Shown: positions 2,765-58,166 of the stretch, piece by piece
Layout: every line of letters starts with the position of its first letter
Numbering within the stretch: the stretch's first letter is position 1
DNA from: Nymphaea colorata
Lineage: Eukaryota; Streptophyta; Magnoliopsida; Nymphaeales; Nymphaeaceae
Assembly (NCBI RefSeq): GCF_008831285.2
Contig: NC_045144.1
Span: 20,041,716-20,105,715, forward strand
DNA: 64,000 nucleotides
Direction: 5' to 3'
The notes under the pieces: generated by a model
The model's database searches: none
Seen by the model: the letters and a program-made list of their open reading frames with translations, nothing else
Told to the model about the DNA's origin: nothing
Position numbers and translations under genes: made by a program

Positions 2765-3892
2765 ATGAAGCAAGTTTCCTTTCCAGTCTTCTTTCTTGCC
2801 CTTCTCCTACTGTCCTTTGTGGTTTTTGCACGTAAACTATACGAGCATAAGAATATGTTTTGCTTATCTTTAGTCCTTCTTAATTTACTTCTTTTTCCTT
2901 CCAAAATCATTAGCCCACCAACAATAGATCATGCCACCCTAGCAGAGACAATGGCAGTGACAGATGTAGGCTGTTCGTATATGTAATGAGCGTATGCCGG
3001 ATGTAGATTCTACTATCAATATGCACATTTACTTTAATGACCAAACATTGCATATGCATGTGCATAAGATGACAAATATAATAAATATGAGATAATGAAA
3101 TAACAAACGGACAAATATATTAGATAACACTAAACGTAAGCATATGATGATGTTTATGAAATAACAAAAGATTTATGAAATAATGAAATAACAAACATAT
3201 TTATGAGATAATGCTAAACAAAAGTATGAGATAATGTCTATGAGATAATGAAATATTTATGAAATAATGAGATAATAGATAGATGTATGAGATAATGATA
3301 AACATAAGTACGAGATAATAAAATATTTATGAGATAATGAGATAACAATATTAGTGGTTCAAAAAAATGAAAATGTTTTTTTACTGCTTAAAAGAATATA
3401 TTGGTCACAATGATATGCATATACGAACTTGACAAATTTTTCCTTTACCGAGTCTTCAAATATTTTTCTACAGATTTCTTTTTTGTCCCTCCAAAAGATT
3501 TTTCTTTGTATTTCCTAGGCATTTTCTCTCATTTATTAAAATGGTGCAACAAAATTACGTCCGCGTATATAACCAGCTTTGTATGTGCATTTAAAATTGC
3601 AGGGCTGAACACTTTCATAAATGTAAATGTGGATGCAGATGAAAACAATGTGAAACGTGAGGTTGATATAAAATATTGGAAAGTGTCATTTCTGTTTAAA
3701 CACGTGTTTGATTTTAACTGGTTCCAAGCAGTGGGGATGATAGGTGGTGCAATCTCACACTCTGGAGTGTGCCATATATGTTTAAATCAGTGCTGCACAG
3801 CGGAGAAGCATGCTGAGTTCATGAAATCCCTCAAAACTGAAACTTTATATGATTATGGTGATGATGACAGTATCTATAGTGCTTCTCAATAA
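2765..3892 (+). pseudogene. P1: decaying secreted Cys-peptide gene, two exons
   Basis: Exon 1 is 2765-2852 and exon 2 probably 3639-3892. Exon 1 encodes the family signal peptide (MKQVSFPVFFLALLLLSFVV, cleavage likely after VFA). Exon 2 has only four cysteines (GVCHICLNQCC) and the family tail start AEF. Three lesions stand out. The usual donor GTATGT reads ATATGT at 2853. The TATA box is altered. A 10-nt deletion relative to P2 just before the stop shifts the frame into the old 3' UTR, adding a tail that ends DDDSIYSASQ. A GT donor inside exon 1 (CAC|GTAAAC) has the same phase and could rescue splicing. A second acceptor exists at 3601-3602 (TTGCAG). It may still be expressed; more likely it is a pseudogene. 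Confidence 0.55.
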
Positions 3893-3899
3893 GAAAGAG

Positions 3900-3966
3900 T
3901 GCATGCCCTTGCAAAAGAGCATGCATGCATTCTATGGATTTCTTATTTCTTGTTGTTAGCAAGAAA
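3900..3966 (+). other. P1 3' UTR stem-loop pair
   Basis: TGCATGC (3900-3906) pairs with GCATGCA (3919-3925), and TTTCTTG (3946-3952) pairs with CAAGAAA (3960-3966). Both stems recur at the same place after the other array genes. Here the second stem begins with a T-A pair where P4-P7 have G-C, a paired change. Confidence 0.55.
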
Positions 3967-5104
3967 CCAATATATATTTATGTTGATCATGTTTTCACCT
4001 CTGCAAGGAAATTAAATAAGTTCTGTTCAATGCACATATATATACTAAAACAAGGTCGCACACACGAGTTTCAACATGGTTCGACTCTAGGTCAGCGGCA
4101 GAAGTAGGTATGGGCTGCATGAGGCATATGCCCCAATGAGTCTACTCTAAAACAATGAGTCTACTCTAAAATCTTGTTTTTATTGATGGGTTCTAGGAAG
4201 ATTAGGGTTCAATTGTATGCACTCGCCCCCTGAGACCCAAGTCACTGTCCCAAGGCCAATTGAAAATTTGTTACCTATACATTTAATGCCCCACAGACAA
4301 AAAATTTCTAACTCCACCCCCTCTCTAAGTCTGCATCCACCATCCTCACTATCTCTCAACTTTTTTGATGATATAGGAGGTATTGATTAGAGCTCTTTTA
4401 AGTTGCATTATGTAAAGCCTGTCCCTTCTTGAGGGAAGATGTTGTTTCCTCACTTGGTGGAGATTCACATCTATCATTATCGGTTACATGATAAGAATTT
4501 GGCTAGCTAGACTTAGATGTAATCCAATGATGTCCGTGATAATCAAAATTAGCTTTGTAAAAATAATCTATTTTCAAAATTTTGATCTTCTATTTTGGCG
4601 TGACATAGTGCCGAAGACCCTCAGGCAAGTGCAGTAGACCATTGCCCACATGTCCCATAAAGGTTCACTATTTTCATCTTGATATGTTCAATTTTTTTCT
4701 GATTTATATATGATGTTGGCCCTTATAAAGACACTTGTCCGTAAATTAGTTTCCATCAGCCTAAAATTCATCTCCCCTTGCCACGGGCGCATCAGCGGTG
4801 GATAGCTGGCGTCTATAAACATATAGCAACAGAAAATGGCCTAAACAAGATGACATAAACCCAATTCAGAATCACGGAATAAGCAACAAGAGACAAATTT
4901 GTGTTTAGCTAAAATTTTAAAAAGTTCAGAAATCAAGAAACAAAACAAAGCTAGTAGCGTTGCCAAACTTGTAAACAAGGGCAGAGTTAGCAGTTTTTCA
5001 TTTCAAGGATTGAAACTATCGTTCCATGAACTTGCCTTGTACTCATGGACATCTTGTTTCTATTTTTCCATGAATATGGCCTGATCTTTTGGTGTAAGAT
5101 AATG
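3967..5104. other. intergenic, no gene seen
   Basis: Sequence between the P1 3' end and the P2 upstream region. It holds AT-rich unique DNA and some weak transposon-like GC patches (about 4090-4330). I see no coding region, RNA gene or intact element. Confidence 0.4.
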
Positions 5105-6021: not shown

Positions 6022-7329
6022 ATGAAGCGAGTTTCCCTTCCATTCATCTTTCTTGCCCTTCTATTACTGTCCTCTGTGGCTTTTGCACGCACACTATATC
6101 AGAATAAGAGTATGTTTCGCTGATCTCTAGTTTTCCTTTGCTTCCTTTTTCTTTCAAAACTATAGCCCACAAAGACTCGATCATGTCACCCTGTTGCAGG
6201 GGGTGGAGGCAGGTGTGGGTTAGTTCAGGAAATTACCCCTCACAGAGACACTTATAAATATTTTTTTTTATGCTGATATTTTAAACATTTTTTCTCATTT
6301 ACATATTGGTGCCTCATAAAAATTTTAAAATTTTTTATTACAGACCCTTAGCCCGAATTTTCGGACTTCACCCCTGCGTCCCCTATTGGTGACACTCTTG
6401 ATGTCAAACAGGCAACTGCACCTCGAGTTGCCTGATGTAATACACAGAGAATGATAGATTGTTAAGTGAGTGTGTGTTTCCTAGTAGTGTTTGATATTTC
6501 GGGTCACACCTGCAGACGATGAGAACAACCTCTTCCGGCTCCTCCCCCCACCCCGGCTCTCTGTCTCTCTCTCTCTCTCTCTCTGTGGACACATGCACAA
6601 GCAGACTAGAACCACATAGAGACATATATGAGTGTACCCGTTGATTCGGTTTTTGCAGCTTTTTCTACAGTATTTGTTTACAGACATACAGGCATGGTGT
6701 AGCTGTTATCTTCTACTAGTTAACTTCCAGTTTATTTTCGGCCTTGTGACTGTTTTTGTTACATAACAAAGTTAGTATGACAGTATTGGAGTTAATGAGA
6801 GGTACAGGGGACGGGTATTTAGAGATAGGCAGGTACGTTCTGGACCAGATCTTGGCCGGACCTAAAATCTAGTGATTCTAATCCAATAATTTGAGGGAAA
6901 AAACAACAATAATTTGGGAAAAAAAACCCCTTGAATCGTCAAACTTTGAAGTTACATACACATGTATATATAATCATGAGCTTTTGTCTCACATACCTAT
7001 ATTGCTATACATGTTATCCCTTTTTCAAATTTATTTATTTTTTTATCTAGTTTTACCTAACAGATCAAGTGAATTAAATTTATTTACCACCATGTTACCA
7101 AAGTCCAAATATATGAAAATGTGTGTTCCCATATACGTATTTTTATATAGGAATTGAAATCACCCTGCTATACTTGTGACTGGATGGGTTTTCTTTTTTA
7201 TGTCGATAAATATCATTGGAAAATGTGCATTTATAACAGTCAGTTGGCGACAGTTTTTGACAATAAAGTTTTTAACAATAAAAAAAAAAAAAAAACTAAC
7301 CAACCGGCGAGAGGAGTACCAGCTTATTT

Positions 7330-7360: not shown

Positions 7361-7443
7361 ACAACCTATTTTTGAGACATTAAATCTTGGCCGTCTGATC
7401 TAAAATCAGACGGTCTACATCTTCCCTCTCTTCCTCCCCTCCT

Positions 7444-7477
<34 letters not shown>

Positions 7478-8305
7478 CTTGCAAGGGTAGCCTTGGTGGC
7501 TTTGCGTCAGATAACGAAAGTCGGTAAGTTTACCCAGTGGGCTTCTTCTTGAAAATATGAGAAAAAAAAAGAAAGAAAAAAAAATCTAAGCTGGTTTGGA
7601 CCGTCCACGCCCCCTTTTTTATTTAAAAAAAAAAAAATCAACACTGACAAGCATCGAAGGGGGAGGCATTGCCTGCTTCCGCTGTTGGAGATGGGTATGG
7701 CCGCCGGTAGGCTGGGCACCGGCGGTGGTTTGCCCCATCGTTTTCTTCTAAGCGTTTATTGGTAAAAAAAAAAAAAAAAAGGCAGGGGAGGCCGGTGGGA
7801 GGTCACAGCCTAGAGGAGGATGGACTCTAATGCCTCTAGGGCGAAGGGCAAAGTGAAGGGAGGGTTCGCATCGGTTAAGCCCACCTTTAATTTTCTTTTC
7901 AAATTACATGTAAAATTTTACAAAATTTGGAAAGTTTAATTCTACTTTTCTTATGAAAAATTTTTAGCTTTCCACCTACGAAACTCCATTTAGTATGTAA
8001 TGGTCGCCTTCATCTTCCTTGCCGGTCGCCTTCCCCTTGCCGCAAGGCGGTAGCAGTCTGCCCTCCTTCCTCGCTGATAAATTTGCATCTGAAGTGATTG
8101 GTTGGAAGCTTTGATAATTGTAAATATGGATGCAGATGAAAACAATCCGAACCATGGGGTTGACCAATGGTCACGCATAATAGGCGGGGGAGTACGCGGA
8201 GGAGCAAAAGGAGGATGCGCACTTTTCTGCCATTATTTAAATCGGTGCTGCACGGCGGCGGAGTATGCCGAGTTCGAGAAAGCTCACAGTGTTCCTAAGA
8301 ACTGA
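6022..8305 (+). CDS. P2: secreted cysteine-rich peptide, two exons
   Basis: Coding parts are 6022-6109 and 8136-8305, 85 aa. Exon 1 gives a signal peptide (MKRVSLPFIFLALLLLSSVA, then FA|R) and ends in phase 1 at a good donor, AAGA|GTATGT. The acceptor is GATGCAG|AT, conserved in all members (GATACAG in P7). The mature peptide (about 63 aa) is rich in glycine before the cysteines (GGGVRGGAKGGC) and has four of them, C-x3-C-x5-CC, followed by the family tail AEYAEFEKAHSVPKN. Compared with P4-P7 it lacks two CC pairs. The 2-kb intron holds CT, TA and A/T runs and a short TIR-like insert. An alternative acceptor at GGAAG|CT (8109) keeps frame and would add ten residues. Probably an apoplastic peptide; role unknown. 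Confidence 0.68.
6556..6584. repeat. (CT)n microsatellite in P2 intron
   Basis: CTCT run beside a C-rich patch; it explains the RERERE-type frames on the minus strand, which are not genes. Confidence 0.85.
7334..7360. repeat. (TA)n microsatellite in P2 intron
   Basis: Thirteen or so TA repeats, preceded by a poly-A run near 7280. Confidence 0.9.
7444..7475. repeat. (CT)n(CA)n compound microsatellite in P2 intron
   Basis: CT run passing directly into CA repeats. Confidence 0.9.
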
Positions 8306-11329: not shown

Positions 11330-12441
11330 ATGAAGCGAGTTTCCCTTTCAATCTTCTTTCTTGCCCTTCTCTTGCTGTCCTCTATGGCTTTTGCACGTAT
11401 ACCATATGAGAATAAGAGTATGTTTTCTTGATCTCTATCCTCCTTTGCTTCCTTTTCCTTTCAAAGCTTTTAGTTCAACAAGAGTAGATCATATGAGGCA
11501 GTTGTGCACAATTGCCTTCGAACTGAAAATTCTCATTTTGTGTTAATATTTATGAGCAATTTTTCTCATTTACATATTTGTCCCTTTTACATTTTATGCC
11601 AATTGCCTCTTAGACCCAATTTTCTGGCTTTGCCTCTACCGTGTTGGTGACACTCTTGATGTCAACCACGCATCTGCACCCCGTGTTGCTTGATGTATAC
11701 TATAGAGAGAATGATTTAGATTAATCTGTGGTTGTTTTCTATTGGTGTTTGATATTTGGGGTCTCACCAGCTGCTGATGATTAGGTGAATTTCGTGTCAT
11801 TTTGGTGCCAACCAAAGTCCAAATATATGATAAAGTGTTCCAGTATATGAATATATGGGAATTAAAATAAGCTGATTATGCTTGTGACGGTTTTTCTTTT
11901 CCTTTTTGTATTGATAAAAAGCGTTGCAAAATATACATTTTTGACAATAAATTGTTAGACCTTGGTTTTTAAGGTAGAGCCTGCTTTTTGGTTGACTTTA
12001 TAATATCGGCCGCTAAAAGAATATTAATTAAAATTATAACAAAGCCATCATTCTGCTGGTATGTTTATGCTAAAACTTTTTTTTTTTTTTATGTGGGAAC
12101 AAGGGGTACTTTTGTCATTAACACCAAACTAACTCACAAAATTTTGTGCACCAGTGTCGCTCATTTGTGCATTTAAAAGTGCATGTTAGTTGGTAGAAGG
12201 GCTTTGCTGATGGTGAATAATATATATGGATGCAGATGAAAACGATCAATCACTGGCATTTTCATGGAAACCAAAAATCGGCTGGCTCAAGCCTGTGCCC
12301 AAAATAGAAAAAGGTATTTCCAGACTTTGCGATCAATGCAATGCCCGAGGCAAGAAATGCTGCGTTGGGAAAGGTCAATGGTGCTGCTCAGCCAAGGAGT
12401 ATGCTGAGTTGGTAAAAGCTCAGAGCGTCCCCCAGAACTGA
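11330..12441 (+). CDS. P3: secreted cysteine-rich peptide, two exons
   Basis: Coding parts are 11330-11417 and 12236-12441, 97 aa. The signal peptide starts MKRVSLSIFFLALLLLSSMA and is cut after AFA. The donor is AAGA|GTATGT and the acceptor GATGCAG|AT. An in-frame TGA lies just upstream of the acceptor, so a longer exon 2 is excluded. The mature peptide (about 75 aa) has an extra basic stretch (KPKIGWLKPVPKIEKG) before six cysteines, C-x2-C-x6-CC-x6-CC, then AKEYAELVKAQSVPQN. It is the longest intact member and has the shortest intron of the six intact genes (818 nt). The cysteine count is intermediate between P2 and P4-P7. A secreted ligand or defence peptide is plausible, unproven. Confidence 0.7.
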
Positions 12442-32888: not shown

Positions 32889-32890
32889 AT

Positions 32891-35640: not shown

Positions 35641-35649
35641 GAATAAATG

Positions 35650-37322: not shown

Positions 37323-37329
37323 GATCTAA

Positions 37330-39345: not shown

Positions 39346-39349
39346 TCTT

Positions 39350-40509: not shown

Positions 40510-40636
40510 CGGCGTCTGCAATGAAACAACTTCCCTTTTCCCTTTTTCTCTCTCTCTCTCTCTCCTCTTATCTCCAAGGCTAGCCGCCAGAAGCGACCAG
40601 CTACCATCACCGGTCCTTGTCATTATTTTCACTTTG
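40510..40636 (+). repeat. block R, copy 3 (upstream of P6)
   Basis: Same block as at 27427, with ATGAAACAAC and a longer CT run. Confidence 0.6.
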
Positions 40637-40787
40637 TGTTTCTTTCTCTATCTCTCTCTCTCTTCTCTCCCTCTCCCTCTCTAGTGGTTGGTCACTATAG
40701 CGAAAGACAAAGAGAGAGGTATCTGACTCATGAGAAGGAAAGACAGGAAAAGGCCAATGATGGTGGAGAGAGAGAGAGGGGGGGAGG

Positions 40788-40960
40788 AGGGAATAACAAG
40801 AGAGACGGCTGATGGCGGCTGCCCACTGATGGCTGGTAGCCCTCAAAGAGAGAAAGAGACCTGAAAGAGGGGGGAGGGAATAACAAGAGAGACCGCTGAT
40901 GGCGGCTGCCGACTGATGGCCGGTGGCCCTCAAAGAGAGAAAGAGACCTGAAAGAGACAG
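40788..40960 (+). repeat. 87-bp tandem repeat, two copies (unit B)
   Basis: Equivalent of 27718-27890. Confidence 0.8.
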
Positions 40961-41932
40961 ATGCTGGCAATAAGAGACCTCAAAGTGTAAACAATCATAG
41001 TATGTCAATGCAACCTTACATAATGTAATATGGATTTAAGATCCAAATCTACTGAAGATCTCACAATTCACATCTTCTAATGCTTCCCATTTTTTCCATT
41101 AACGTACATACCCATTTTTTTCGTTCAATAAAGGTGTGGAGCCTAAACTCTCATGAACTCTTTACTGGACATTTTTGGCCATTAAATAATGAAAAAATAG
41201 AAGAAAAAGTGAAAATACCTAATCTAGCTCAGGCTCCATCGATCATTAAAGGTGAATATTGTCCACAGACCATGTTCGTCGTCGACGACAGGTTTTTCTG
41301 CCAATGCACAACCTTCCCTCGGCCATGTTTATAGCAACGATTTATAGCGATTTTGGGGGCAGATTTTTTACTTACAGTTTTTATTTTTAATTTTTAGTTT
41401 TTATCAAAGAGGAGATTATGAGTTTATTTTCAACCTTTCTCATTTTGAAAACGCTGCGCTGCTATTTTTTGTGAGAATAATCCTATGTTGGTTATCTTGG
41501 AAAAAACATGAGTTCAAATTCGTGGGTGCCACATCTATGCTACCCAGTTGTTCTGCTTTCTATTTGCCGTTGTCAAATTTATCTTCTGGTTTTGCAGCTC
41601 GTCAAATATACAGTACTTTGTGTTACATAGTATCTTTTCACGAGGTCGTATTCAAGTAGCGTTATGTAAGTGTCTCATTAAAGGGTGTAGGTTAAAAGAA
41701 GGGATGCAGGCCTGACCAGCGACGGTCGGCGGTGTTGCATCATTCTTAGTTGTCTAATCCAAGACGCAAGCTTTTCTTAGTTCTCTAGTCCAAGACGCAA
41801 GCTTCATCTATACGAATACTTAATGGAGATGACATATTCTACCTCACAGATGAGATGATGTACATGGTCCACCCTTATCTATTCTCTCTCACTTTCCAAG
41901 AAGGTGGATCTCAGGCCACATCTATAAATAGA

Positions 41933-41940
41933 TGATGGAG
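41933..41940 (+). promoter_or_regulatory. TATA box of P6
   Basis: TATAAATA, 70 bp before the ATG, in the shared core-promoter context. Confidence 0.78.
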
Positions 41941-42002
41941 GAGGTCTCATTCTGCAGTGCACTCATCCAGCCTTCCTCCACCAGTTGCAGTTGCTATTTA
42001 CA

Positions 42003-44467: not shown

Positions 44468-44549
44468 GGAGGCTTCCTGGTTCGCCGGTGTTGACGCATG
44501 TTGATGATAATGGTAGCAGCGAAGGTGCTTGTCAATAATAAAGTAAGCG

Positions 44550-44628
44550 TGCATGCTTATTGTCCGCTAGCAATCGAGCATGCATGCAGGGTATGTGTGT
44601 CCTGGTTCTTGTTGATTTTACAAGAACC
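44550..44628 (+). other. P6 3' UTR stem-loop pair
   Basis: TGCATGCT (44550-44557) pairs with AGCATGCA (44577-44584). GGTTCTTGT (44604-44612) pairs with ACAAGAACC (44620-44628). Identical to P5. Confidence 0.62.
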
Positions 44629-45100
44629 TTATGTGTACGCTTTATGTCGCGTGGAATGAAATAAATTAGTTAAGCTCTGCCTAATCACTACACTACAGAA
44701 AGAAGCATGTTTTTTGCAACATCCAAGATCCTGCCATGCAAAGCCAAAAATCAGTTGCTGCAAGTTTGTAACATAATTACTTCAAATCCGTACCTGATCG
44801 TCAGATTAAAATCCATTACTTATTGCTTTTACCTTTTAAGCAAAAGTTATTCTGCGTGTGTGAGTGACGTGTGTATATATATATATATATAAAACAAAGC
44901 TGTTTTTATGAAATATGTTGATTTCTTTATTATCAAAATGTTAATGCAACCTGAGTGGCTTATTTTTTTTATAAAAACACTATTAAAACCTAAAAAATGA
45001 TCAATGGAAAATAAATTTGCAGAAAAAAAGAAGAGAAACCTGAAAAATGATCAATGGAATATAAATTTGCAGAAAAAAAAAGAAAGAAAATTCACAAAAG

Positions 45101-45362
45101 GCCTGGGCATCGAGCCGGCCCGACACTCAAAACTCGGGCTCGACCTGACCATTAAAACCCGTGCCCAAGCCCGCCAGGCTTGGGCCAATAAATTTTAAAA
45201 AAATATATTTCTTAAATATAAAATAATATATATATGTAATTAATTGTAGTAAAATATTATATTTATATATAAAAATCGATAAAATATAATATCCCTCGAT
45301 AAATTATTAGGCTCGAACGGTGCCCTTTTTTTCAGGGCTCGGGTGCAGGCCCGGGAAAAAAT
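45101..45362. repeat. GGCCCG-rich repeat, possible MITE (unit B)
   Basis: Unit B copy of 31646-31907. Confidence 0.4.
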
Positions 45363-45364
45363 AT

Positions 45365-46343
45365 TTGATTTCAAAATTAAAAAAGGAGGGTTCTCATTTT
45401 TATTGAAACTAGAATTGTGTAATCAAACAAATATTTGATTTCAAAATTTTCGACTCATTCTTAAATTAAAATTCTGAAATTACGATTCTGTTCTAGGCGT
45501 GGAATTGTGATTTTCAAAATTCTAGAATTTTTTCATGTCTCTCACGATAGTTTTAATTCATCACTATTAAGAAATAATTTTCAATTCTGGAATCGAAATT
45601 CCATACTATTAAATACAAAGAAAAACTAAAGCTGAAATTTCCAAATTAAAATTTAAGGTGATATTTTGTCTTTAGAATTTTATTTATACAATCAAAATTC
45701 AAGACCGTCAAACGATCCCTGATTGTGTAATCTTTCATTATAATAAAGGAAAGAGTTGTCGGTTGAAGCATCAAAGACTGGCGTTTTTAGCCCTCCCTTC
45801 CTGCCTTTGAGTTTTTAACCTTTTCAAGGGGAGCGCTCATAAATTTATTAAATTCCACATTAGAGCATTTACTCGCAGTGAACATTTTTAAACCCAAAGC
45901 CAACGATGTCACACATTTAATACCACTTGGAACTCGATTAGCGATCAGATTCAAGTTTTAGTTCACTGAATGAAGTTGAAATTATAAAATCGGGATATGA
46001 TCCCATCTATCATCATCACCATGAGTTTATATCATTTTGGAATCCTTCAAAATGAAATTGGAAGGATGGAGACGGAGTACTTGTTGGCAGATAATAGTTT
46101 CGTTTCACATGTTGGAGTTTAACAGAAGGGTTGCTGCAGTGTGGGTTGCTTCATGCAGTGGCTGAGCAAGAAAAATTTTCTGAAGGGGCACTTCGTTCAG
46201 AAACAATATTTAAAGATGTTAATGTAAAAATAAAGAAACTGCCATATGTAGCTCCCCCATTGCCTCCATGCCGAATGAGATGAGAAGCAAAAATGAATGT
46301 TTTCTTCTGTTGCAAGATGAAATCAGTAGAGAAGAGGGTCTGA
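45365..46343. other. P6 downstream DNA, no gene seen
   Basis: Unit B copy of 31910-32888. Confidence 0.45.
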
Positions 46344-46344
46344 T

Positions 46345-46425
46345 GGTAGCATAAGGCTTAAACGTGTTTTGAATGTCCTATTGAGAACCGGTGACATTCA
46401 AAACACGTTTAAGCCTTATGCTACC
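46345..46425. repeat. perfect 33-bp inverted repeat (unit B)
   Basis: Arms 46345-46377 and 46393-46425, identical to the unit A hairpin, including the 15-nt loop. Confidence 0.9.
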
Positions 46426-47190
46426 TTTTTAACTAAAATGGAGAAAGAACAACTTAGAAACTGAAATCAAATGAGATGATGGAAACCACACCAGGGAGTA
46501 TAAAGAGAAAGCATTGGCTACCATACGTGTCAACGAAGACCAACTTAGAAACCGAAGGCTGAATCTCTCGAAGAACAAGCAAAGATAATGTATATCATTT
46601 TCATTGAACACAGTATTGTATAGTGGGCATCCCCTCTTAGAAAATTCATTGTGATTCTCTGAAGAGTAGAGAGGACAGTAAACGTTGGCTAATTAGCGCT
46701 TTCTTTCTTTTTTTCCATTATTTTTCATTAGAGGTGAGCGTCACCGCTCTCTTCTCCTAAGAGAGGCAACTGGCTCCCCCTGCGCTTATCACTTCCAAGG
46801 TTTATAGAACTGATGCCGGGATTTATTACAGTCTATAGATAAGTGCAATGGGTCATGTCAACGACTGTCAGACCTTTTGAAAGTAGACGGCCTTGCAACC
46901 TAGGGAAATGACATTCATCGGAATCAAAGCAAGGATATACCATACCAGTGTACCCCGTCACGACTAGCTATACTATGCCCACTTAGGAGTAAAAGATACA
47001 TTTTCATTTAAGAATAGTGATGAAAAAAAAAAGGATATATTGTTCCTACATGAACCCTACCCCATTCAACTGCGAGTGTCATCATAAAAACCCTACATCT
47101 GTTGCCCTGCAGGATGAGACTCTCATCGTGGTACTATGTGGGAGATGCACACTCTGGTTTTGAACTGATGACATTATTCAACTTGGAAGA

Positions 47191-47400
47191 TCATGACCTA
47201 TTAAGCAGCATTTTTCTCATATCCATCCTACGTATGAGAGGAGTTTGCTCTTCCAGACTTTGAATCTTCCGAAATAGACCTTTACAAATTTCTTCCTTGA
47301 GCATTCTTGTGAATAAATGAAGCCCTACATACTGATCAGGAAGGGCCTCCACAAACCAGAGAAGAACGGCAGTGATCTCATCCAACTTCCTTTGGCTTAT
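47191..47400 (-). pseudogene. exon of an unidentified gene fragment (unit B)
   Basis: Unit B copy of 33737-33946 with the same acceptor, frame and TGA. The two upstream open pieces are also present (about 47602-47414). Confidence 0.4.
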
Positions 47401-47614
47401 CTGAAAAGGAAAATAATAGATTCCTGCCGATTCATCAACATGACCGCTTTCGCTTCAAACTTTTCAATAATCAGCTTAACTTGGATTGGCCTGGCCATGA
47501 TCATTAATTAGTATCTATTGCCATTGCATTCATGACACATGATGCATCTACAGACTCAGCAATCCGTTCGGTCATAAATGTGAGCTCACTCGACGTGCCT
47601 CAATTTAACATTCT

Positions 47615-49050
47615 CGTATTATCTAAAGAGGATATTGTTCATTTGTTTGCTTAGTTACAAATTCGGCAGGTAGGCTTTTATGAAGGCCTCTTCAAACTTG
47701 AAAACCAGCGAGAGTACAATTCTCATCAATATTGCAGTAACAAAAAATCGCAAAACTAAAAGCATTTTCTTGTTTTTTATCTCTTTTTTTTTCAATCGTC
47801 CTAATCTTTTGCCTTTTGGTTTTGATAGTTTAAAAAGTATACATTTTAATTTGATTGATTAATTCACAAGAAATTCTCATGATTTCGTTGCACGTTTCAT
47901 TCCATTCCAATACCGATTTAATGCCTTGGCTTGAAACCTCACGTGATTGAACAGAGCACGACTAGCAAGCAAGGTATGTAACAGAGTTATGGCCAAGAAT
48001 TTTTTCTTGGGCAGGCCCTACAGTTCAAAGCAAGAAGCAAATAAAGTTTCTGAAAAAATTCTACAGAGGCAAACTATATTTTTTCTCAGATTTGCATAGG
48101 GGCCAAACTTAAAATTTTGAACTATTAAAACCTTGTTTTACGAAATCCCAGGGGAGGTCATGGCCCCTGCCAGTCCCACCACAACACCCCCCAGCCCCAA
48201 ATCCCCCACCCAGCAATTTTCATTTTTTTATTAGCTTTTAAAAAAAATTGAGATTTCTTCTTGAGAAAAAACAACTTTGCTGAAAAATACCCCAGAACAA
48301 CCTTGCCAATATTTTCCCAAGGACATTCCAAAGCATACAGGTCATGAAATCTGGTTTAGGTGTAGGTTCCTGAGAGCAAAGAATGGTGCCGGTTAGACAA
48401 ATGTGCTGGGTAGGCACCATCAAGAAGCACTTGCTATATACTTAGGAAGCGAGTGAAAGCAGGCTTCCAGCTCCCTACGCAACGTAGGATTAAAAAAAAA
48501 AAGAAAGAACAGACATGGCATTCAATTACTTGTGCACACTATGCGGGAAGGCTGAGGAAAGTAACGCTCATATCATGATAAGAGTATAAGATGGTGCAAG
48601 GGGTGTGAATATGGATAACATGCAAAGGATATCAAGTGTGAGCTAAACAGGTGATGGATCAATGGGAATGGCAGTTCTTTTATAACTCTTGTCTATCTGA
48701 TGGTTACACATTTGACCCAACTTTTCTTTTCCATCTTCATTCTCGTCGTGCTAGGTACAATATACTAGCACAGCTGATCAATTTGCAAAAAAGCAGGCCC
48801 TAAAAATTATCCACATTGAGAAGCTAGTGAAGTTACATATCAAGAAATTTATGACAATATTCTTAAGTTGCAAATCTCTCTCTGTTGATTCTTTTTTTTC
48901 TTGTTGTTATCAATTTACTTATACGATTTGCTATACCCAGAAATAAAATTAATTGTGGTATTGACAACAGATCAACAAAAGCCATGGTGCTCATGCCTTT
49001 TCAGCTTTCAGATGCCATGGTTTACGAGATGAGAATATAAGAAGAAGCCA
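47615..49050. other. unit B intergenic, no gene seen
   Basis: Unit B copy of 34160-35640, with small length differences in T and C runs (near 47785 and 48187). Confidence 0.4.
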
Positions 49051-49056
49051 TCGATC

Positions 49057-50469
49057 CTATTTATGTATAAAAGGCAACACGGTAAACAAGGTTTGAATAA
49101 ATGTCAAAACCAACAAAAAAATGGCTGCTAATAGGGACACAGCAGCCCATGGGTTCTTGAAGTATTTCCGCTTCAGATATGCTCTCGCAGCATTCCAATA
49201 GGAGGCAACATATTTCTGCAAGGGATCGTAGACTTCATAGTCTGGACAGTGTGGAATGCCAATAAGCAAGTTGTTGAAGACTTCGGCAGCTTCCTCGTCA
49301 CTCCCAAGCAAGTTCGTCATGATCCCTCGAGAGCACAGTAGGTTCACATCTTCAGCAGTATCTACTAAACTATCCATGAACCCCACAAACGAAATCATCT
49401 TCTGGTCCGTCCACAACTTTGAATGCATTCGCTCAAAGGCCATTATGTTCACGTAGATTGCTGCTGTGTGGTTGTGTACAAGGATTACTGGAAGAGTGAG
49501 TACTCCATTTTCTTTATCGAAGGTAACCCTTAGGCCATTGTAAGGGTCCCGCTTTCTGAACTCAACCCCTGCCTCATGAAACCTCATTGCCGACCGCACA
49601 TTTGATTTGGTAATTGGCCTACAGCACAGAGCCCTAAAGTCCAAGATGGGGATCGATGTGAGCATAGACTTCACCTTCTCGCTAGCACCATGTAGCCTTG
49701 ATGGACCTTGAGTCGAAACCGGATTGGAAGGCACTTGGGTGGTGGGGGTCGTTTGTTTCGTTGGTGCACATTCCTTTATCAAGCACTTCCTATACACGTC
49801 TAGAATATGCAAATTAGGTTTATTAACTGGCGAGGTATCACTGAACCCATAAATTCTTCCGAACAAGTTTTTGAGATATGTGTCGTCGTTGATCTCTTTC
49901 TTTTCCACTATTCCTTGCAACTTTCTTAATACAAGGAGAGGGATTTGGTTTTCTAGTATCATCATGTCCCGATTAATCACAGTGTCCATAACCACCCCAC
50001 GCAAATTAAAGACAGGATCATCCGGATACTCGGGCTCCCCCTGTAGTCTAGTGCGAAAGAGTTCAAGCATGAAACACCCATCAAGCAACATCATTCTTAG
50101 AAAAGAATCCGATGTCATTTTCTGATCAAGATTGTCGTAGCTATCCCTAAGTTCTTGCTCTACGTCTTTCAAGGATTTAATGAAGTCAGAGGTTGAAACG
50201 TTGCTCTTCTTGAGGATCCTGAAGAGAGCTCTCACTTTGTGATGCTCCATGGGTTGCAGGTGCTCCTTTCTATGGTGGAAGGGACCAAGTGATACCATGT
50301 GAGGAGTGCGGTGCTTGGACAAGCTTGATGTAATGACAAGGTCATTAGGCCATCTGTAGATGCACCTTTTTTCCAACTTCGACTCATATTCGGAAGGATC
50401 ATAAGATTCATATTCGCTCTGTATGTCAATAGCATACATGTTTTCGTTTTCATTTTTCTCTTCCGCCAT
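49057..50469 (-). CDS. DUF247 (UPF0481) membrane protein, full length (unit B)
   Basis: 470 aa from the ATG at 50469-50467. The sequence is that of the unit A copy up to residue 451 and then continues through a hydrophobic stretch (LLAAIFLLVLTFIQTLFTVL, about 447-466) ending PFIHK, the expected C-terminal membrane anchor. The DUF247 blocks are VSLGPFHH, MEHHK, MLLDGCFMLELF, ILENQIPLLVL, FHEAGVEFRKRD and the YW…LKRKYFKNPW region before the anchor. Biochemical function of the family is unknown. In grasses, DUF247 proteins are encoded at the S and Z self-incompatibility loci together with a small secreted peptide. The gene is transcribed towards P6, with the peptide gene about 4.6 kb beyond its 3' end. 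Confidence 0.92.
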   Translation of the reverse strand: MAEEKNENENMYAIDIQSEYESYDPSEYESKLEKRCIYRWPNDLVITSSLSKHRTPHMVSLGPFHHRKEHLQPMEHHKVRALFRILKKSNVSTSDFIKSLKDVEQELRDSYDNLDQKMTSDSFLRMMLLDGCFMLELFRTRLQGEPEYPDDPVFNLRGVVMDTVINRDMMILENQIPLLVLRKLQGIVEKKEINDDTYLKNLFGRIYGFSDTSPVNKPNLHILDVYRKCLIKECAPTKQTTPTTQVPSNPVSTQGPSRLHGASEKVKSMLTSIPILDFRALCCRPITKSNVRSAMRFHEAGVEFRKRDPYNGLRVTFDKENGVLTLPVILVHNHTAAIYVNIMAFERMHSKLWTDQKMISFVGFMDSLVDTAEDVNLLCSRGIMTNLLGSDEEAAEVFNNLLIGIPHCPDYEVYDPLQKYVASYWNAARAYLKRKYFKNPWAAVSLLAAIFLLVLTFIQTLFTVLPFIHK

Positions 50470-50625
50470 TGTCGCTGTATTTGTGAGGCCACAAAAGAAA
50501 AAAACCATATGTGAGACAGGATTCCTAAAGCAAGTAATGTAAAGTTATATGCAAGTGTTCGGTGGGCATGCAATACCATGCTATCTTATCCATAAATAAT
50601 ATAACTGATTGAGAAAAGTTAAGCC

Positions 50626-50777
50626 CCATTCTCCCTGCCTCCCGGGTCATGGGTTATGTAGGCATTAGCGATGGCAACTTTGGTGCCACTAGGACGCAAA
50701 GATATACTACCTACAAGACTCGAACTAAAGGCATGCTTCTGCACAAGCCCCTAGCCTGACCAGCTGTGCCCCTTGAG
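50626..50777 (-). mobile_element. tRNA-derived SINE fragment (unit B)
   Basis: Unit B copy of 37170-37322 with the same A- and B-box-like words. Confidence 0.5.
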
Positions 50778-50784
50778 GATCTAA

Positions 50785-52535
50785 ACGTCTAGCTTGTATT
50801 TTCGTTTTCGATGACCAACTTAAAAGGACATAGACAAAACTAGTATGTCAAGAAACAGTCTGCATGAGGGTAGCAACTGCCCACACTTTACAGCCAAAAA
50901 ATGATACCACTGGAGCGGTGCTCCGGTAATAGCTGACGCCAACGAGTGGGGTGGCTGCATCGACCATTGTCGACCCCGCCGCGGCCAGGGCCGATGCAGC
51001 CCATGGGCTGCCTGTGGAACTATTGTAACCCACGCAACCCAGTGGGACATGGCATCGTCAACGATGCAGCTGAGTGAGGTTTCGGCCATGGCCGTATCTT
51101 GCAATGGCTTTTGAAATGCTTACCTGGAAAAGTGGTGCTGGTGGAACAGAAAAAGGCGAGACACTGTTCCTGCTGTTTCCGGTGATTCTTCAAGTTGCAT
51201 GGTAGGGGCGGGCTTGGAGAGGAATGGCAGGGGAAGAGGAGAGGTGGGACTGGGCAGGTGGAGGATCAGGCGTGCAAAGAAAGAACAAGTGGTGAGAGAG
51301 AGGGGGAGAGAGAGAGAGAGATCAGAGAGAGAAACCCAGGTTGCACGACACTTTTGGCCGCCTTTTATCCCTTTTGTTTGGAGGCGCAGTTTTTCAAGGA
51401 CTTTTCATTGACTCTTAATTCGAGGAAAGTGGTAGCAATTCACAGCGAATCTTCGGTGAAAGTGGTAGCAATTGGCATCGAATCTTCGGAGAAAGAGTTT
51501 GTAGCGCATTTCCAGTCCAAATTCAAGTCGACTCCTTCAACAAATGAGTCGCGTTCCAATCTTTTGAATGACTTGTTTGCTTACCCGAATCGAGCTCTTG
51601 TTCACTCGATATTAATCCGCTATCTCACTTGTTGCAGACAAGAAATCGAGTCAGACACCAAACTCCAAAACACGCATCAATGGATTTTACGGCTGAGGGG
51701 CAGATGAATCATCTACCCATATTGCAGTGGTCAACACTGAATTCAAGAAAGGCAGCCAGCCACTGGTATTCAGTTGTCACGCTATCAAGACAACAACTTG
51801 GAGAAGGGGCAGGTGAACTTAGAGCCGCGTATTCTGCGAGTGGATGTGGACGGTCAGGCTCAAGGGCGAAGGCCCAGATCTGCACTCTGTCCTGGACGCG
51901 ATCTATTAATTAATATTTATTGCCATTGGAGTTCAGCTTCTTTCTCATATTGAATAACAAGTTATTGTTCATCTCAATTCCAAACTGCAAATTAAGGTAG
52001 GCTTTTGAGAAGGTGGATTTGCTGCAAGACTTGGATGCAATTGACAATAAATTCTTATTGCCATTTACTCCACTCCATTTTCATTGTCGTTTGTTCAACT
52101 GATCCTGAAAGTCAATTAGGGGGAGGCCAAGGCAGAAGCTTATTGAAAAAGAAGTCAACCAAAGAGAAGTTGGGCTGTTCATTGACTTGACTTCGCTTCA
52201 CTTGTACCTAAGATTGAAGATAGGGGCGGCGGGCAAAGCTCCGGCCCCTCATCTTTATTTTCCCCTCATACGAGGAGCCGCAATCAAGAAATTCGGAACT
52301 TTTTAATTTTGTATGTTGGTACCTAATTTATGTTTGTGACAAGCAGGTGCCTAATTTTCAGACCAACTTAATCTTATGCCATTTCCAAATCACCCACATG
52401 TTCCTGTTCCTGAACACTTGTGGTGCCCCTTGGTTTTTCTTTGATTTACAAAAGTGAATCTTCTTACTGATCATGGGCTAATTTTCTAATTTGAAAATAT
52501 AATAAAAAATTATTGCCACAAAAAACATGTGCAGG
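50785..52535. other. unit B, no convincing gene
   Basis: Copy of 37330-39080. The 170-codon frame is kept unchanged at 51195-51707, but the units are so similar overall that this is not evidence of selection. Confidence 0.3.
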
Positions 52536-52536
52536 T

Positions 52537-52801
52537 AGGTATTATAAGACAAGTAAAAAAAAAAAAGTATAATACGGCAAAGTTGTATATCTCAGGAATA
52601 AAATACGAAAATCTTGGTAAATTTTTAAAAAATTTAAAACATTAAATAAATCCTAAAAGTTATAAAAAAATAAAAAATCATAAAAAATAAAAAAACACAA
52701 AAAACTTGTATAATAAGTGTTTTTTTGTGTTTTTTATTTTATGACGTTTTTTTAAAAAAGACACGTTTTGTATAGGTATTATACGACTGACTATTATACG
52801 C
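52537..52801. repeat. AT-rich foldback element (unit B)
   Basis: Unit B copy of 39081-39345 with one- or two-base length changes in A runs. Confidence 0.5.
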
Positions 52802-53965
52802 ATCTTTTTCTAGAATAACACGCGTTTTTTTGTGACAGTGGATAAAATAAAATATTTTAAGGTAATTTGAAAATCTAAAATGTTTTAAAAAATAAACTAC
52901 ATAAATTTAAGATTTCTACGGCCAATTTGACGTGCATCTACCTGTTGTCACGACATGATGTAGTGTTTGGCATCCCGTCACAGATGTGCAGTTTTCAAAG
53001 GTTTTCTCTATCTAGATAGTTTCCAGATAAGTTTGGGTTTGAGGTGGTGTGAATAAGCTCGGTTTAATTTGTACACTAGGCTTCTGAAATCTTTGGTTCA
53101 GTTTTTTTTAAAATTTTGTTCTAGTATGGGTGCTGTGTCCTCTTTTAAGTTTTTTTTTTTTTTTTTTTGCAAATTTAGATCCTTCATTTTCAGGTAACAA
53201 AAGTAAGGTTCTACTTGGCCCTATCGACAAGGTGACACATGGCCATTTGCCCACACAAGCTCACAAGTTTTATTTATTTTTATATTAGTGATCTTCGATT
53301 TTTTTTTTATTCATATAACATGCCCCAAAATTATTTATGTGTTTTGTGCCCCTCAACCATTTAATTATGTCTAATATCTTTTTTTTTTTTGTTTTGCATC
53401 AGTGCCCCTTGTTAAATTAGAAAGCCACTGATCGGCCTCCCAACAAGGTAGCAGCAGAATGTGTTTTCTTAGATTTTTATGACATTCGCAATATCCAGGA
53501 TGATTCTGCTTAGTTAACATAATATGCAGGATGATTCCATATCCATGTTCACTTCAAAGATTCACATAGCTTGGGTCGAGACCTATTAAGGTGTAAAAGA
53601 TGAGTGCAGTGAATTATGACAGCAACGGTAGAATTTGGACCTCAAACCCTTTTAAAGTAGACCGCGTTATCACCCAGCTGCAACATCTTCGCTTCCTTTT
53701 GCTCCAACATCTTGGCTTCCTTTTGTGTTCAAACCTTTTCTCTGTTAGGCCTAGCAAGAAGCCGTTCTAATGGTGCCGATACTTCTTTTCTTCCTTTGCC
53801 TACATGATAGGCCTCCTCTCATGTGCCATTTTTCAATCACGTTCTTTAGGCTCTAAATTCATGCCCATTGGTAGATTTTAGAAACCATTCATCGCCGACC
53901 AACGTAACTGTTAATGAGACCAGGCCCACCATAGAAGAGGAACTCCCTGAGGTTCGGGCAGATCT

Positions 53966-54092
53966 CGGCGTCTGCAATGAAACAACTTCCCTTTTCCCTT
54001 TTTCTCTCTCTCTCTCTCTCCTCTTATCTCCAAGGCTAGCCGCCAGAAGCGACCAGCTACCATCACCGGTCCTTGTCATTATTTTCACTTTG
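53966..54092 (+). repeat. block R, copy 4 (upstream of P7)
   Basis: Same as the unit B copy. Confidence 0.6.
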
Positions 54093-54111
54093 TGTTTCTT
54101 TCTCTATCTCT

Positions 54112-54155
54112 CTCTCTCCCTCTCCCTCTCCCTCTCCCTCTCCCTCTCCCTCTCT
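54112..54155 (+). repeat. (CCCTCT)n hexamer expansion
   Basis: About six CCCTCT repeats where units A and B have about two, directly after block R. Confidence 0.85.
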
Positions 54156-54261
54156 AGTGGTTGGTCACTATAGCGAAAGACAAAGAGAGAGGTATCTGAC
54201 CCATGAGAAGGAAAGACAGGAAAAGGCCAATGATGGTGGAGAGAGAGAGAGGGGGGGAGGA

Positions 54262-54435
54262 GGGAATAACAAGAGAGACGGCTGATGGCGGCTGCCCACT
54301 GATGGCTGGTAGCCCTCAAAGAGAGAAAGAGACCTGAAAGAGGGGGGAGGGAATAACAAGAGAGACCGCTGATGGCGGCTGCCGACTGATGGCCGGTGGC
54401 CCTCAAAGAGAGAAAGAGACCTGAAAGAGACAGAT
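54262..54435 (+). repeat. 87-bp tandem repeat, two copies (unit C)
   Basis: Equivalent of 27718-27890 and 40788-40960. Confidence 0.8.
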
Positions 54436-55316
54436 GCTGGCAATAAGAGACCTCAAAGTGTAAACAATCATAGTATGTCAATGCAACCTTACATAATGTA
54501 ATATGGATTTAAGATCCAAATCTACTGAAGATCTCACAATTCACATCTTCTAATGCTTCCCATTTTTTCCATTAACGTACATACCCATTTTTTTCGTTCA
54601 ATAAAGGTGTGGAGCCTAAACTCTAATGAGCTCTTTACTGGACATTTTTACTCATTAAATAATGAAAAAATAGAAGAAAAAGTGAAAATACCTAATCTAG
54701 CTCAGGCTCCATCGATAGGTGACCTTCCCTCGGCCATGTTTATAGCAACGATTTATAGCGATTTTGGGGGCAGATTTTTTACTTACAGTTTTTATTTTTA
54801 ATTTTTAGTTTTTATCAAAGAGGAGATTATGAGTTTATTTTCAACCTTTCTCATTTTGAAAACGCTGCGCTGCTATTTTTTGTGAGAATAATCCTATGTT
54901 GGTTATCTTGGAAAAAACATGAGTTCAAATTCGTGGGTGTCAGTTGTTCTGATTTATATTTGCCGTTGTCAAATTTATCTTCTGGTTTTGCAGCTCGTCA
55001 AATATACAGTACTTTGTGTTAAATAGTATCTTTTCACGAGGTCGTATTCAAATAGCGTTATGTAAGTGTCTCGTTACAGGTTGTAGGTTAAAAGAAGGGA
55101 TTCCGGCCTGACCAGCGACGGTCGGCGGTGTTGCATCATTCTTAGTTGTCTAATCCAAGACGCAAGCTTCTTAGTTCTCTAGTCGAAGACGCAAGCTTCA
55201 TCTATACGAATACGTAATGGAGATGACATATTCTACCTCACAGATGAGATGATGTACATGGTCCACCCTTATCTATTCTCTCTCACTTTCCAAGAAGGTG
55301 GATCTCAGGCCACACC

Positions 55317-55324
55317 TATAAATA
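55317..55324 (+). promoter_or_regulatory. TATA box of P7
   Basis: TATAAATA followed by GATGATGGATGAGGTCTC, 80 bp before the ATG. Confidence 0.77.
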
Positions 55325-55396
55325 GATGATGGATGAGGTCTCATTCTGCACTGCACTCATCCAGCCTTCCTCCACCAGTTGCAGTTGCTATTTACA

Positions 55397-58166
55397 ATGA
55401 AGCGAGTTTCCCTTTCAATCCTTTTTCTTGCCCTTCTCTTGCTGTCCTCTACGGCTTTTGCACGTATACCATATGAGAATAATAAGGGTTTGTTTTCCTG
55501 ATCTCTAGTCCTCCTTTGCTTCCTTTTCCTCAAAACTTTTAGCCCATCAAGAGTATATCATGTCACCCTGTTGCAGCTGCCGAGGCAGTTGTCGGCAATT
55601 GCCTCCCAACTGAAATTTCTTATTTTGTGTTAATATTTATAAGCAATTTTTCTCATTTACATATTTGTACCCTTTTACATTCTATGCCTATAGCATCTAA
55701 GCTCAAATTTTCTGGCTTTGTGTTGGTCTAAGACACTCTTGATGTCAAACACGCACCTCACTCCATGTTGCTTGATGTATAACACGGAGAATGATTTACA
55801 TTAATTTGAGGTTGTTTTCTTTTGGTGTTTGATATTTGGGGTCTCACCAGCTCATGATCAGAACAGCCTCTCCCAGCTTGCTTCCCTCTCTCTCTATCTC
55901 CGGCGCATGCACACCGACACAAGTAGACTACGACCACACACAATAGCATATTTCTTAACGACACGTATATGAGCGTGCCCATTGATTTGGTTTTTTGCAG
56001 CTTTTTCTCTACTACTTGTTTGCATGCATGCAGACATATAGTGTGACTGTTAGCTTCTACTCCTTAATTTTCAGCTTATCTTGCTTAGCTACATTCTTCG
56101 GCCTTGTTGCAGTTTTGTTACATAACAAGGTTCGTAATATAGTATTGGAATTAACGAGAAGTACACCATACGGCACTCTTATTTTAACATTCAAACTTAG
56201 AGGCGCACTCGTAGTTTTTATGTGTAAATGAAGCAAATTTTTGTAGCTGGTGTGAGCAATTGTCCAGCAGCCCCAAGATACGTACAAGAATTGGGTATTT
56301 AGATACAAGTAGGTACATTTTGGATCACATCTTGGCCATACCTACATACTTTAATGAGTGGCCTAGAAATGGCCCGCGCTTCTCATTATTTTTCCTCTCT
56401 CTCTCGATACCGGCCACCCATCTCCCTTCACGTGGACAAGACCCCACCATCGTTGGCCTTCTTCATGGCGCTCTGTTTTCCCCTCTGGCGGAATACGCAT
56501 GTACGTACACACATACATAGAAAAAATTGTATGGTAGTTCTATTATTTAGAGTGTCACTTGTTCACTTGCAAGAAACGTCTGATTCATTGTAATGGAAAG
56601 TTGAAAGACAAACATTGAAAAAAAAGTAATGAATATTTTCATTTATGTAATATTAATTTAGACTTTTTTTAATTTTTTTTTCTATCAACCATCCATTAAG
56701 ATCATATTTGCCTGAAAAATAATGCATTGACCATATCTCTTTTAGCATTCTAAAACGGAAAATATCATGAGAACCTTATAAACCGTTAAGTTATTTCTTC
56801 AGGTCAATTATCAAAGGTGTGAGCACCTATGTTGTTGTTGCGAGCATAGCAAGATGCTCACGCTCTATTACCACTGTTTGTTAATGAAGGCTCACCCTTA
56901 CATACGAAACAAGTATAGCCAAAGATAAGTCGGATACAAGTAAAAACTCTAAGGAGCATATATGTATCATTGAGCATACCGTTCTGCGTGCTCACGTTCA
57001 CGTGCGTGTGAGGTTTGCATTAGAGAAACAGAGAGATCTGGAGCAACCAGTGATAGAGGAGAGATTTTTTGGTTGTTTTCTACTGGCAATGTTTGATATC
57101 TGGGGAGTGTGATCTTGTCTTGTCTACGCTGCCACCCAAACCTCTCTCTCTCTCTAGGTAACGCCACTATGAACACACATGAGTATGCTAAAAGACATAA
57201 ATGAGCATGTTAGTTAAGCTTATTTTGTTGCATGAAGCTTTTTTAGAACTTTTTTGCATGCATTCATCATGTTATTGTTGGTTTCTTCTCCCAGTTTCCT
57301 GCGGCTTATCTTTTTCCTTATGGCAAATTTAATACAACAAGGAAAAAATAGACCTCCCAGCTAAGGACACAGCAAATTATAAACATCAATAAGTTTGTGC
57401 TTTTGCTGTCTCTCTTTTTTTCTTTTGTCTCTCCAATATCTATGTGTGTGTGTGGCCGGGCTTACCATTCCTAAAATTGACATTATTGCATGGGGGAGTT
57501 TACTGTTCATATATATAAGTTATAATGTATGTAACTAAGTTTTGAACTTTTTAAGAACGCATTTAGAGGATCATTCTCAAAGCTCTTCCTTGGGCAACTG
57601 GCAAAACAGTTTCTAAAATAGCTTAGCACACTACATTCAAAGAACATTTTGGGAACGAAAGGATGGTTGTTCCTATTTACTTTTAGGAAGTATATGACAG
57701 CCAGAACCTTCTGGCCGCTCTAAAAGTCTATTTGGTGTTGTGGCACACAACTTGGTCTGAAAACCAATGTATGAAGGAGTGATACGGGATACAAGTTTCT
57801 TACATATAGATGCATGCGTTTTGGATTAGATACATAGTTTCTAGAACTAAATATAGTCCAACGATCAAAATTGTTACAATGTAGCTAGCCCCTTTTTAAG
57901 CTTCCTTTTTTCACTAATTTTACTCAATATATAATTTTGGTGTGGAGCTGTCACTCGTGAAATCTAAAATGGCCTGTTACTTGGCCGAATGCAATATGAT
58001 TTCCCTAATTATCGTTCGTATGGATACAGATACAATCTGCCCAAAACTCTGCCCAGATTACAGGGGCAGATTGCTATGCTGCAAAAGTAACTGTTGCGGT
58101 GATTTTTGCTGCAGTAATGGGGAGTATGCGGAGTTCCTGAAAGCAAAGAGTCTCCCCAACAACTGA
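55397..58166 (+). CDS. P7: secreted 8-Cys peptide, two exons
   Basis: Coding parts are 55397-55487 and 58030-58166, 75 aa. The signal exon encodes the same residues as P5 (MKRVSLSILFLALLLLSSTA…). The donor is AATAATAAGG|GTTTGT, and the acceptor is GATACAG|AT, one base off the family GATGCAG. The mature part is strongly changed: the KKDARGEVVKD segment is gone. The eight cysteines are spaced C-x3-C-x8-CC-x3-CC-x3-CC (ICPKLCPDYRGRLLCC, then KSNCCGDFCC). The tail is NGEYAEFLKAKSLPNN. With exon 1 almost unchanged and exon 2 this different, P7 is the clearest case of mature-peptide divergence in the array. Its intron (2542 nt) is the longest. Confidence 0.7.

Follow-up and report, generated by a model that had tools for sequence, protein, structure and literature searches.

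An array of two-exon genes for predicted secreted cysteine-rich peptides in Nymphaea colorata, probably a glycine-poor branch of the cysteine-tailed glycine-rich proteins

The stretch of Nymphaea colorata DNA analysed here (hereafter the window, 64,000 nucleotides) covers positions 20,041,716 to 20,105,715 of the chromosome-scale contig C7 (NC_045144.1), and the genome searched comprises 408 Mb. The window carries an array of six intact genes and one damaged gene, each of two exons, predicted to encode small secreted cysteine-rich peptides. The explanation we favour, and consider probable, is that of a tandem, recently expanded array of two-exon secreted peptide genes, which would constitute a glycine-poor, cysteine-expanded branch of the glycine-rich protein (GRP) family with a cysteine tail. 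Within this explanation, the family relation and the gene anatomy are very likely correct. The array is real, partly degenerate and recently expanded, and it is not without relatives; what sets it apart is a gradation from glycine-rich to cysteine-rich members, together with the apparently chimeric genes.

The array was originally predicted from the letters of the window alone, and its central proposal of two-exon genes for secreted cysteine-rich peptides was borne out: six intact frames are obtained at exactly the proposed junctions. All six junctions (genes 2 to 7, numbered in window order) have a GT donor, an AG acceptor and phase 1, and the joined open reading frames (ORFs) encode intact precursors of 85, 97, 79, 80, 80 and 75 residues, respectively. 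Also as predicted, the start MK[RQ]VS is found in all seven genes, the acceptor reads GATGCAG/AT in genes 2 to 6 and GATACAG/AT in gene 7, and the tail pattern is present in the six intact members. The features are as follows.

2765 to 3892 (+): gene 1, damaged; exon 1 at 2765 to 2852 with its donor lost, exon 2 starting at 3639, its tail frameshifted
6022 to 6109 (+): gene 2 exon 1, signal peptide
8136 to 8305 (+): gene 2 exon 2, mature peptide in which a short glycine-rich stretch precedes the cysteine tail
11330 to 11417 (+): gene 3 exon 1
12236 to 12441 (+): gene 3 exon 2
23359 to 23446 (+): gene 4 exon 1, B-type signal exon, AREMAENQ
24903 to 25054 (+): gene 4 exon 2, B-type mature peptide
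28947 to 29037 (+): gene 5 exon 1, A-type signal exon
30861 to 31012 (+): gene 5 exon 2, B-type mature peptide, apparently chimeric gene
42003 to 42093 (+): gene 6 exon 1, A-type
42810 to 42896 (+): B-type exon 1 relic within the gene 6 intron
44316 to 44467 (+): gene 6 exon 2, B-type, apparently chimeric gene
55397 to 55487 (+): gene 7 exon 1, A-type
58030 to 58166 (+): gene 7 exon 2, B-derived and shortened, apparently chimeric gene

Exon 1 encodes a well-conserved signal-type peptide and is followed by the phase-1 intron, and exon 2 encodes the mature peptide, which has a variable first part and a conserved closing cysteine unit, CC-[ST]xxE[YF]xxF. The signal peptide call is a judgement from the sequence (hydrophobic core, AFA/R). 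After residue 23, the products of genes 2 to 7 contain 5-13% glycine and 6-15% cysteine, the latter reaching 14-15% in genes 4 to 7, and gene 2 is a mixed form in which a GGGVRGGAKGG stretch precedes the cysteine tail. Other predicted commonalities stood in part. The shared TATA context holds for six of the seven genes, with TATAAA at -75 to -103, but gene 1 has TATAAG only, and the spacing C-x2-C-x5-CC-x3-CC-x3-CC is found in genes 4 to 6 but not in genes 2, 3 and 7. Polyadenylation-like motifs lie 3' of all seven genes under a loose pattern (AATAAA, AATAAT, ATTAAA or AATAAG), AATAAA proper being downstream of genes 4 to 7 only.

The count of seven likewise needs qualification, as gene 1, the first in the array, is damaged: its donor is lost (GT to AT) and its tail has a 10-nt deletion relative to gene 2, which shifts the frame. 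Given a paralogue at C7:20.03 Mb has a comparable shifted tail together with a good donor, the tail shift probably predates the damage of gene 1 itself and is not private to it. Moreover, each copy of a tandem duplication holds one exon-2 region, that of gene 5 or that of gene 6, so seven genes do not amount to seven independent cases.

The family extends well beyond the window. Matches to the products of genes 5, 2 and 7 in the same genome fall at C7:19.82-19.88, 20.02-20.25 and 21.46-21.88 Mb, with single copies near 6.95 and 7.90 Mb, and relatives occur on two further chromosomes, C2 and C11. An iterated exon-1 profile yielded at least 35 hits with E<1e-8 in the fetched loci and the window, 34 of them on C7 and one on C13; eight are in the window, and the total includes two frameshifted B-type relics. 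The iterated exon-2 profile yielded at least 38 tails on C7 with E<1e-4, seven of them in the window, plus repeated tails in one C11 frame. These counts are lower bounds, since part of the region was fetched and the best candidates only were scored, and hits weaker than E 1e-8 (exon 1) or 1e-4 (tail) are not counted. All 22 modelled members, which are those with both exons findable, have splice sites, an intact frame and phase 1; the copies left unmodelled have no clear exon 1 or acceptor, are damaged, or encode peptides identical to a modelled one (L026, L028, L029).

Profiles built from the window alone indicate the family is not a product of chance, as they yield no hits with E<0.01 in reversed or shuffled ORFs. 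The tail profile, built from five window genes without iteration and searched against 10,020 frames, gave 34, 0 and 0 hits in real, reversed and shuffled frames at E<0.01, and 43, 0 and 2 at E<1; the corresponding values for the signal profile are 35, 0 and 0, and 43, 4 and 0. Most of the searched loci were preselected by similarity to the window genes, so that the 34 hits, window frames included, are not an unbiased rate.

The original prediction regarded these genes as an isolated, unrecognised family of seven. Instead, they belong to a clan spread over the genome, one member of which is a bona fide Pfam GRP with the same cysteine tail. At C7:20.19-20.25 Mb, seven exon-2 frames, six of them modelled, go with an array-type signal exon and the closing unit, but have a GGPGWG-type glycine-rich middle; glycine after residue 23 is 21-34% in the six glycine-rich members, versus 5-13% in genes 2 to 7. 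On C2 (1.478-1.565 Mb) and C11 (9.857-9.875 Mb), the relatives are mostly glycine-rich proteins with one to several C-x3-C-x3-CC-SAEEYAEF-like units. One of the C2 loci, L049, a gene with signal exon, intron and mature exon (phase 1 read by eye), was first picked up by the Pfam GRP model PF07172 (31.2 bits exon-wise); once its two exons had been joined by eye, the score was 41.7 bits across the full model, against a cut-off of 30. The window-only tail profile finds L049 at E 1.3e-6, and the C7 glycine-rich frames at E 1.5e-8 to 2.1e-6. Since L049 was found through the Pfam model and not through the tail, its tail match is the independent result among the profile hits. Judged on these profiles and compositions, the window peptides are best read as glycine-poor, cysteine-expanded relatives of cysteine-tailed GRPs.

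Several results weigh against the favoured explanation. The match of L049 to the signal profile is no better than E 0.045, the peptides of genes 2, 3, 4, 5 and 7 matched no Pfam family, and gene 5 retrieved nothing from the PDB by sequence at E up to 10. The canonical class II motif of Crip29 was not found in the genome, an empty answer that proves little. The Pfam matches of window peptides were at chance level only and were discarded, namely PepSY_2 at E 0.06 and, for gene 3, Conotoxin at E 0.26 (12.7 bits versus a cut-off of 25.1). One C7 glycine-rich member scores 22.1 bits against PF07172, below the cut-off, and two other relatives on C2 and C11, searched as exon-2 parts, gave no match to it. 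Further PF07172 hits were set aside, those on C13 and C12 because they looked like antisense or low-complexity frames, and that on C1 because it appears to be a tailless class I type; a hit on C9 scored 17.6 bits.

In a tree of signal and tail, the eight C2 genes split from all 22 C7 genes, glycine-rich and cysteine-rich together, with support 100/99, although the tree has few columns and 15 of its 26 inner branches remain open.

The accessible text of PMC5852109 defines class II GRPs by a signal peptide, a mature region and a C-terminal cysteine-rich unit. The window peptides resemble this class (PF07172; AtGRP3, CrGRP) in having the same three parts, in that profiles of both ends, signal and cysteine tail, are common to the window genes and the C7 glycine-rich members, and in that L049 combines the array tail with a full-length PF07172 match. 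They differ in lacking the high-glycine middle and, for the five peptides searched, a PF07172 match, as well as in the form of the closing unit: the array has CC-[ST]xxE[YF] with one or two further cysteines before it, whereas Crip29 has C-x4-CC-x8-C-x2-CC (PMC7576778, part of the text), a comparison of Crip21/29 spacing made by inspection.

Two sets of relatives deserve mention in their own right. The frame at 1069-2043 (-) of L053 (C11:9856500-9862000) encodes 325 residues with nine CC-SA[AE]E[YF]A units and seven KGAEDMHGG spacers between them, and looks like a multi-unit glycine/histidine-rich precursor. The D-type subgroup at C7:21.46-21.88 Mb (L018-L020, L025-L029) has 12-13 cysteines, mostly in CC pairs, and is superficially granulin-like; the peptides encoded by exon 1 and by exon 2 are identical in five of these genes (L025-L029). 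A granulin identity for this subgroup was rejected, since two D-type proteins and one mature part matched no Pfam family, the granulin domain included, at E up to 10.

The mature exon evolves differently in different parts of the family. Nonsynonymous to synonymous divergence ratios (dN/dS) were computed for pairs exceeding 50% identity and 80% coverage, leaving out gene 6 as a copy of gene 5. In the glycine-rich C7 genes, exon-2 dN/dS is 0.01-0.26 in all ten pairs passing the filter (five genes), indicating purifying selection, and this supports the gene model as coding and the architecture as shared. The 19 defined cysteine-rich pairs, which are not independent (two identical rows) and include two with saturated dS, range from 0.26 to 2.52, with 11 of them above 1. 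In the B subgroup (genes 4 and 5 and the genes at C7:20.113 and 20.126 Mb), all eight cysteine columns are invariant versus 10 of 35 other columns; in five D-subgroup genes, the values are 12 of 13 and 16 of 52.

Divergence was also compared region by region. With gene 7 added to the B subgroup, divergence in exon 2 exceeds that in the 250-nt 3' flank for all 10 pairs, which are not independent (p 0.027 to 1.9e-12). The clearest pair, gene 5 and the C7:20.113 gene, differs at 28/134 positions in exon 2, 7/150 at the intron end and 2/249 downstream. In the glycine-rich controls, which belong to a separate comparison of 17 pairs of our own choice, exon 2 is less diverged than the intron end in all three pairs and less than the 3' flank in two of the three. 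Gap lengths in the exon-2 alignments are divisible by three in all ten B pairs (one gapless) and in five of six D pairs (one gapless), the sixth having gaps of 8 and 17, while the flanks have many gaps of other lengths; this pattern carries no weight, as the members were picked as intact.

A number of observations speak against rapid change of the mature exon under selection. Among the cysteine-rich pairs, only the 21.543/21.733 contrast (repeated with the twin 21.834) reaches an uncorrected p of 0.03. Compared with the 150-nt intron end, exon 2 of the B set is in excess in seven of ten pairs, the three exceptions all involving C7:20.126. In the D subgroup, exon 2 lies above the 3' flank in three of six pairs (one with p 0.08) and below it in the other three, and in 6.95/21.564 and 21.669/21.684 it is more conserved than both flanks. 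Exon-2 synonymous divergence is raised too (dS 0.14 between gene 5 and C7:20.113, where the 3' flank differs at 2/249), which points to recombination or homogenised flanks besides selection. Fast change of the mature exon is seen in the window's main subgroup, B, and is not family-wide.

The strongest rival, to which we assign somewhat less than an even chance, attributes the B-subgroup divergence to recombination and not to selection on the peptide: tracts of mature exon would have been swapped and the 3' flanks homogenised by gene conversion. The raised synonymous divergence agrees with it, as do the clearly shuffled front and back halves of the genes and 3' flanks that are near-identical between loci about 40 kb apart (2/249). 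Against it stand the fixation of cysteine columns (8/8 and 12/13, versus 10/35 and 16/52 for the others) and an excess of dN over dS in several pairs, up to 2.5. Both processes may co-occur, and we read the B-subgroup divergence as selection together with recombination, not as selection alone.

The shuffling is most apparent in genes 5 to 7. Gene 4 and gene 5 differ by 47% upstream, 31% in exon 1 and 53% in the 5' part of the intron, versus 5% in its 3' part, 20% in exon 2 and 11% downstream. In gene 6, an A-type block at 41751-42727, like genes 2 and 7, gives way at 42786 to a B-type block resembling gene 4, whose homology to gene 4 begins 24 nt before the B-type ATG. The original prediction missed what this block contains: a second, gene-4-type exon 1 at 42810-42896, frameshifted and identical to that of gene 4 at 82 of 87 aligned bases, with one gap, its frame from the ATG reading MKRVSFPSCL-stop. 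Gene 5 lacks the stretch carrying the relic, and the B block detected in gene 7 begins downstream of the relic position. A similar A-then-B layout with a relic is found in L009, and L010 has an A-type front and a B-type back with no relic detected. L009 has three successive first exons (551-631, 1010-1075 and 1372-1443) before a single exon 2 at 7440-7573: one is clean, one diverges after AFA, and one is a B-type relic, frameshifted as in gene 6.

Genes 5 to 7 thus look chimeric, with A-type upstream DNA and signal exon before a B-type mature exon. The block map would be most simply explained by neighbouring paralogues having recombined, or undergone deletion, at or close to intron 1, with duplication coming afterwards. 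The duplication itself consists of two copies with 99.67% identity over 11.67 kb at a spacing of 13.46 kb.

29599 to 41243 (+): tandem duplication copy 1, with gene 5 exon 2 and a DUF247 gene
43055 to 54716 (+): tandem duplication copy 2, with gene 6 exon 2 and a DUF247 gene

The two DUF247 genes, one per copy, are near-identical and lie at 35653-37089 (-) and 49060-50544 (-), matching PF03140 with 324 and 330 bits.

It is rather unlikely, at roughly one chance in four, that genes 5 to 7 are not working chimeras and that an A-type gene without exon 2 merely adjoins a B-type gene without exon 1. The frameshifted relic in the gene 6 intron would fit such orphan halves, and so would the donor gtttgttt of genes 5 to 7, where the usual one is gtatgttt. 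A B promoter is absent 5' of the relic, with gene 4 homology starting 24 nt before the ATG as described above, which also agrees with separate remnants. On the other hand, donor, acceptor and phase are compatible and the frames are open in all three genes, and the combination of A-type front and B-type back recurs with an intact frame in the C7:20.126 paralogue. As exon 1 and exon 2 come from different paralogue lineages, the models of genes 5 to 7 need transcript proof more than the others do.

With regard to function, the sequences suggest the precursor would enter the secretory path and be cleaved after AFA, and the mature peptide would form several disulphides and act in the apoplast or cell wall. 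The closing unit would be the constant part, a helix predicted with low confidence, and the variable cysteine loops may meet fast-changing partners, most likely microbes or pests. Because the cysteines are fixed and the loops change fast, our first choice of role is a defence-type peptide of the apoplast, with about an even chance of being right. AlphaFold, given the mature peptide of gene 5 with five window rows, returned a weak model with helices at 13-17 and 34-44, a mean predicted local distance difference test (pLDDT) of 66 and a predicted template modelling score (pTM) of 0.38.

Two other roles are each improbable, with something like a one-in-five standing. One is a structural role in the cell wall like that of class I and II GRPs, with the cysteine-rich branch under relaxed constraint and no arms race. 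Kinship with glycine-rich wall-type proteins and a dN/dS near 1 in many cysteine-rich pairs agree with it, but the cysteines are largely fixed, and short, glycine-poor peptides with 14-15% cysteine (genes 4 to 7) would be unlike wall scaffolds. The other is that the peptides are ligands in recognition or signalling (e.g., in pollen-pistil contact or of receptor kinases) and not antimicrobials. DUF247 genes are interleaved with the array, and DUF247 proteins are self-incompatibility determinants in grasses; yet, because DUF247 is a large plant family, this is weak evidence, and the neighbourhood alone proves nothing on the function of the array. Class II GRPs do meet receptors, AtGRP3 interacting with WAK1 (excerpts of PMC4777284) and Crip21 of CrGRP meeting CuRe1 (excerpts of PMC7576778).

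A further comparison is with the nodule-specific cysteine-rich (NCR) peptides of legumes of the inverted repeat-lacking clade, which in the available part of PMC6056668 are described as a large family with a relatively conserved signal peptide, an extremely divergent mature peptide and conserved cysteine positions. The array resembles NCR peptides and nodule-specific GRPs in its conserved signal, divergent mature peptide, retained cysteines and large family. Unlike NCR peptides, it spaces its cysteines as CC pairs (eight cysteines in B-subgroup members, 12-13 in those of D), has a C-terminal E[YF]xxF unit that is conserved, and unites glycine-rich with cysteine-rich members in one family.

A broader and more tentative idea, which we consider less likely than its opposite, is that one family both switches its mature peptide between a glycine-rich wall type and a CC-paired cysteine-rich type, keeping signal exon and closing unit, and generates new peptides by recombination inside or close to the intron, so that the promoter and signal of one paralogue drive the fast-changing mature exon of another. 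If true, such a switching and recombining family would be a plant counterpart to venom-peptide diversification and would link the glycine-rich and cysteine-rich peptide worlds by descent. Conotoxin-type venom peptides have a conserved signal, a fast-changing mature exon and fixed cysteines, and the likeness of the array to them is one of evolution, with no homology shown. Within one genome, the members here grade from glycine-rich proteins, by way of a mixed form, into cysteine-rich peptides, while their ends stay constant. This makes the origin of plant cysteine-rich peptide families testable, and the same genome also has apparently chimeric genes on show, one of which (gene 6) still holds the relic of its replaced first exon in place. 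Small secreted peptides encoded by one or two exons are often missed by gene finders (PMC3924332, in part). In the literature, the literal tail strings matched no paper, and among the openly available texts on such arrays, GRPs, NCR and actinorhizal peptides, most subscription papers being outside the scope, no paper on this family was found.

Plant defensins (PF00304) are small secreted cysteine-rich peptides with two-exon genes, and the array shares these traits with them. A defensin identity was nevertheless rejected, since the window peptides searched (genes 2, 3, 4, 5 and 7) gave no match to PF00304 and the CC-pair spacing is not of defensin type. The genome search listed 20 PF00304 matches, none of these on C7 or in the window. 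At C2:17.93-17.97 Mb of the same genome, PF00304 matches form a cluster.

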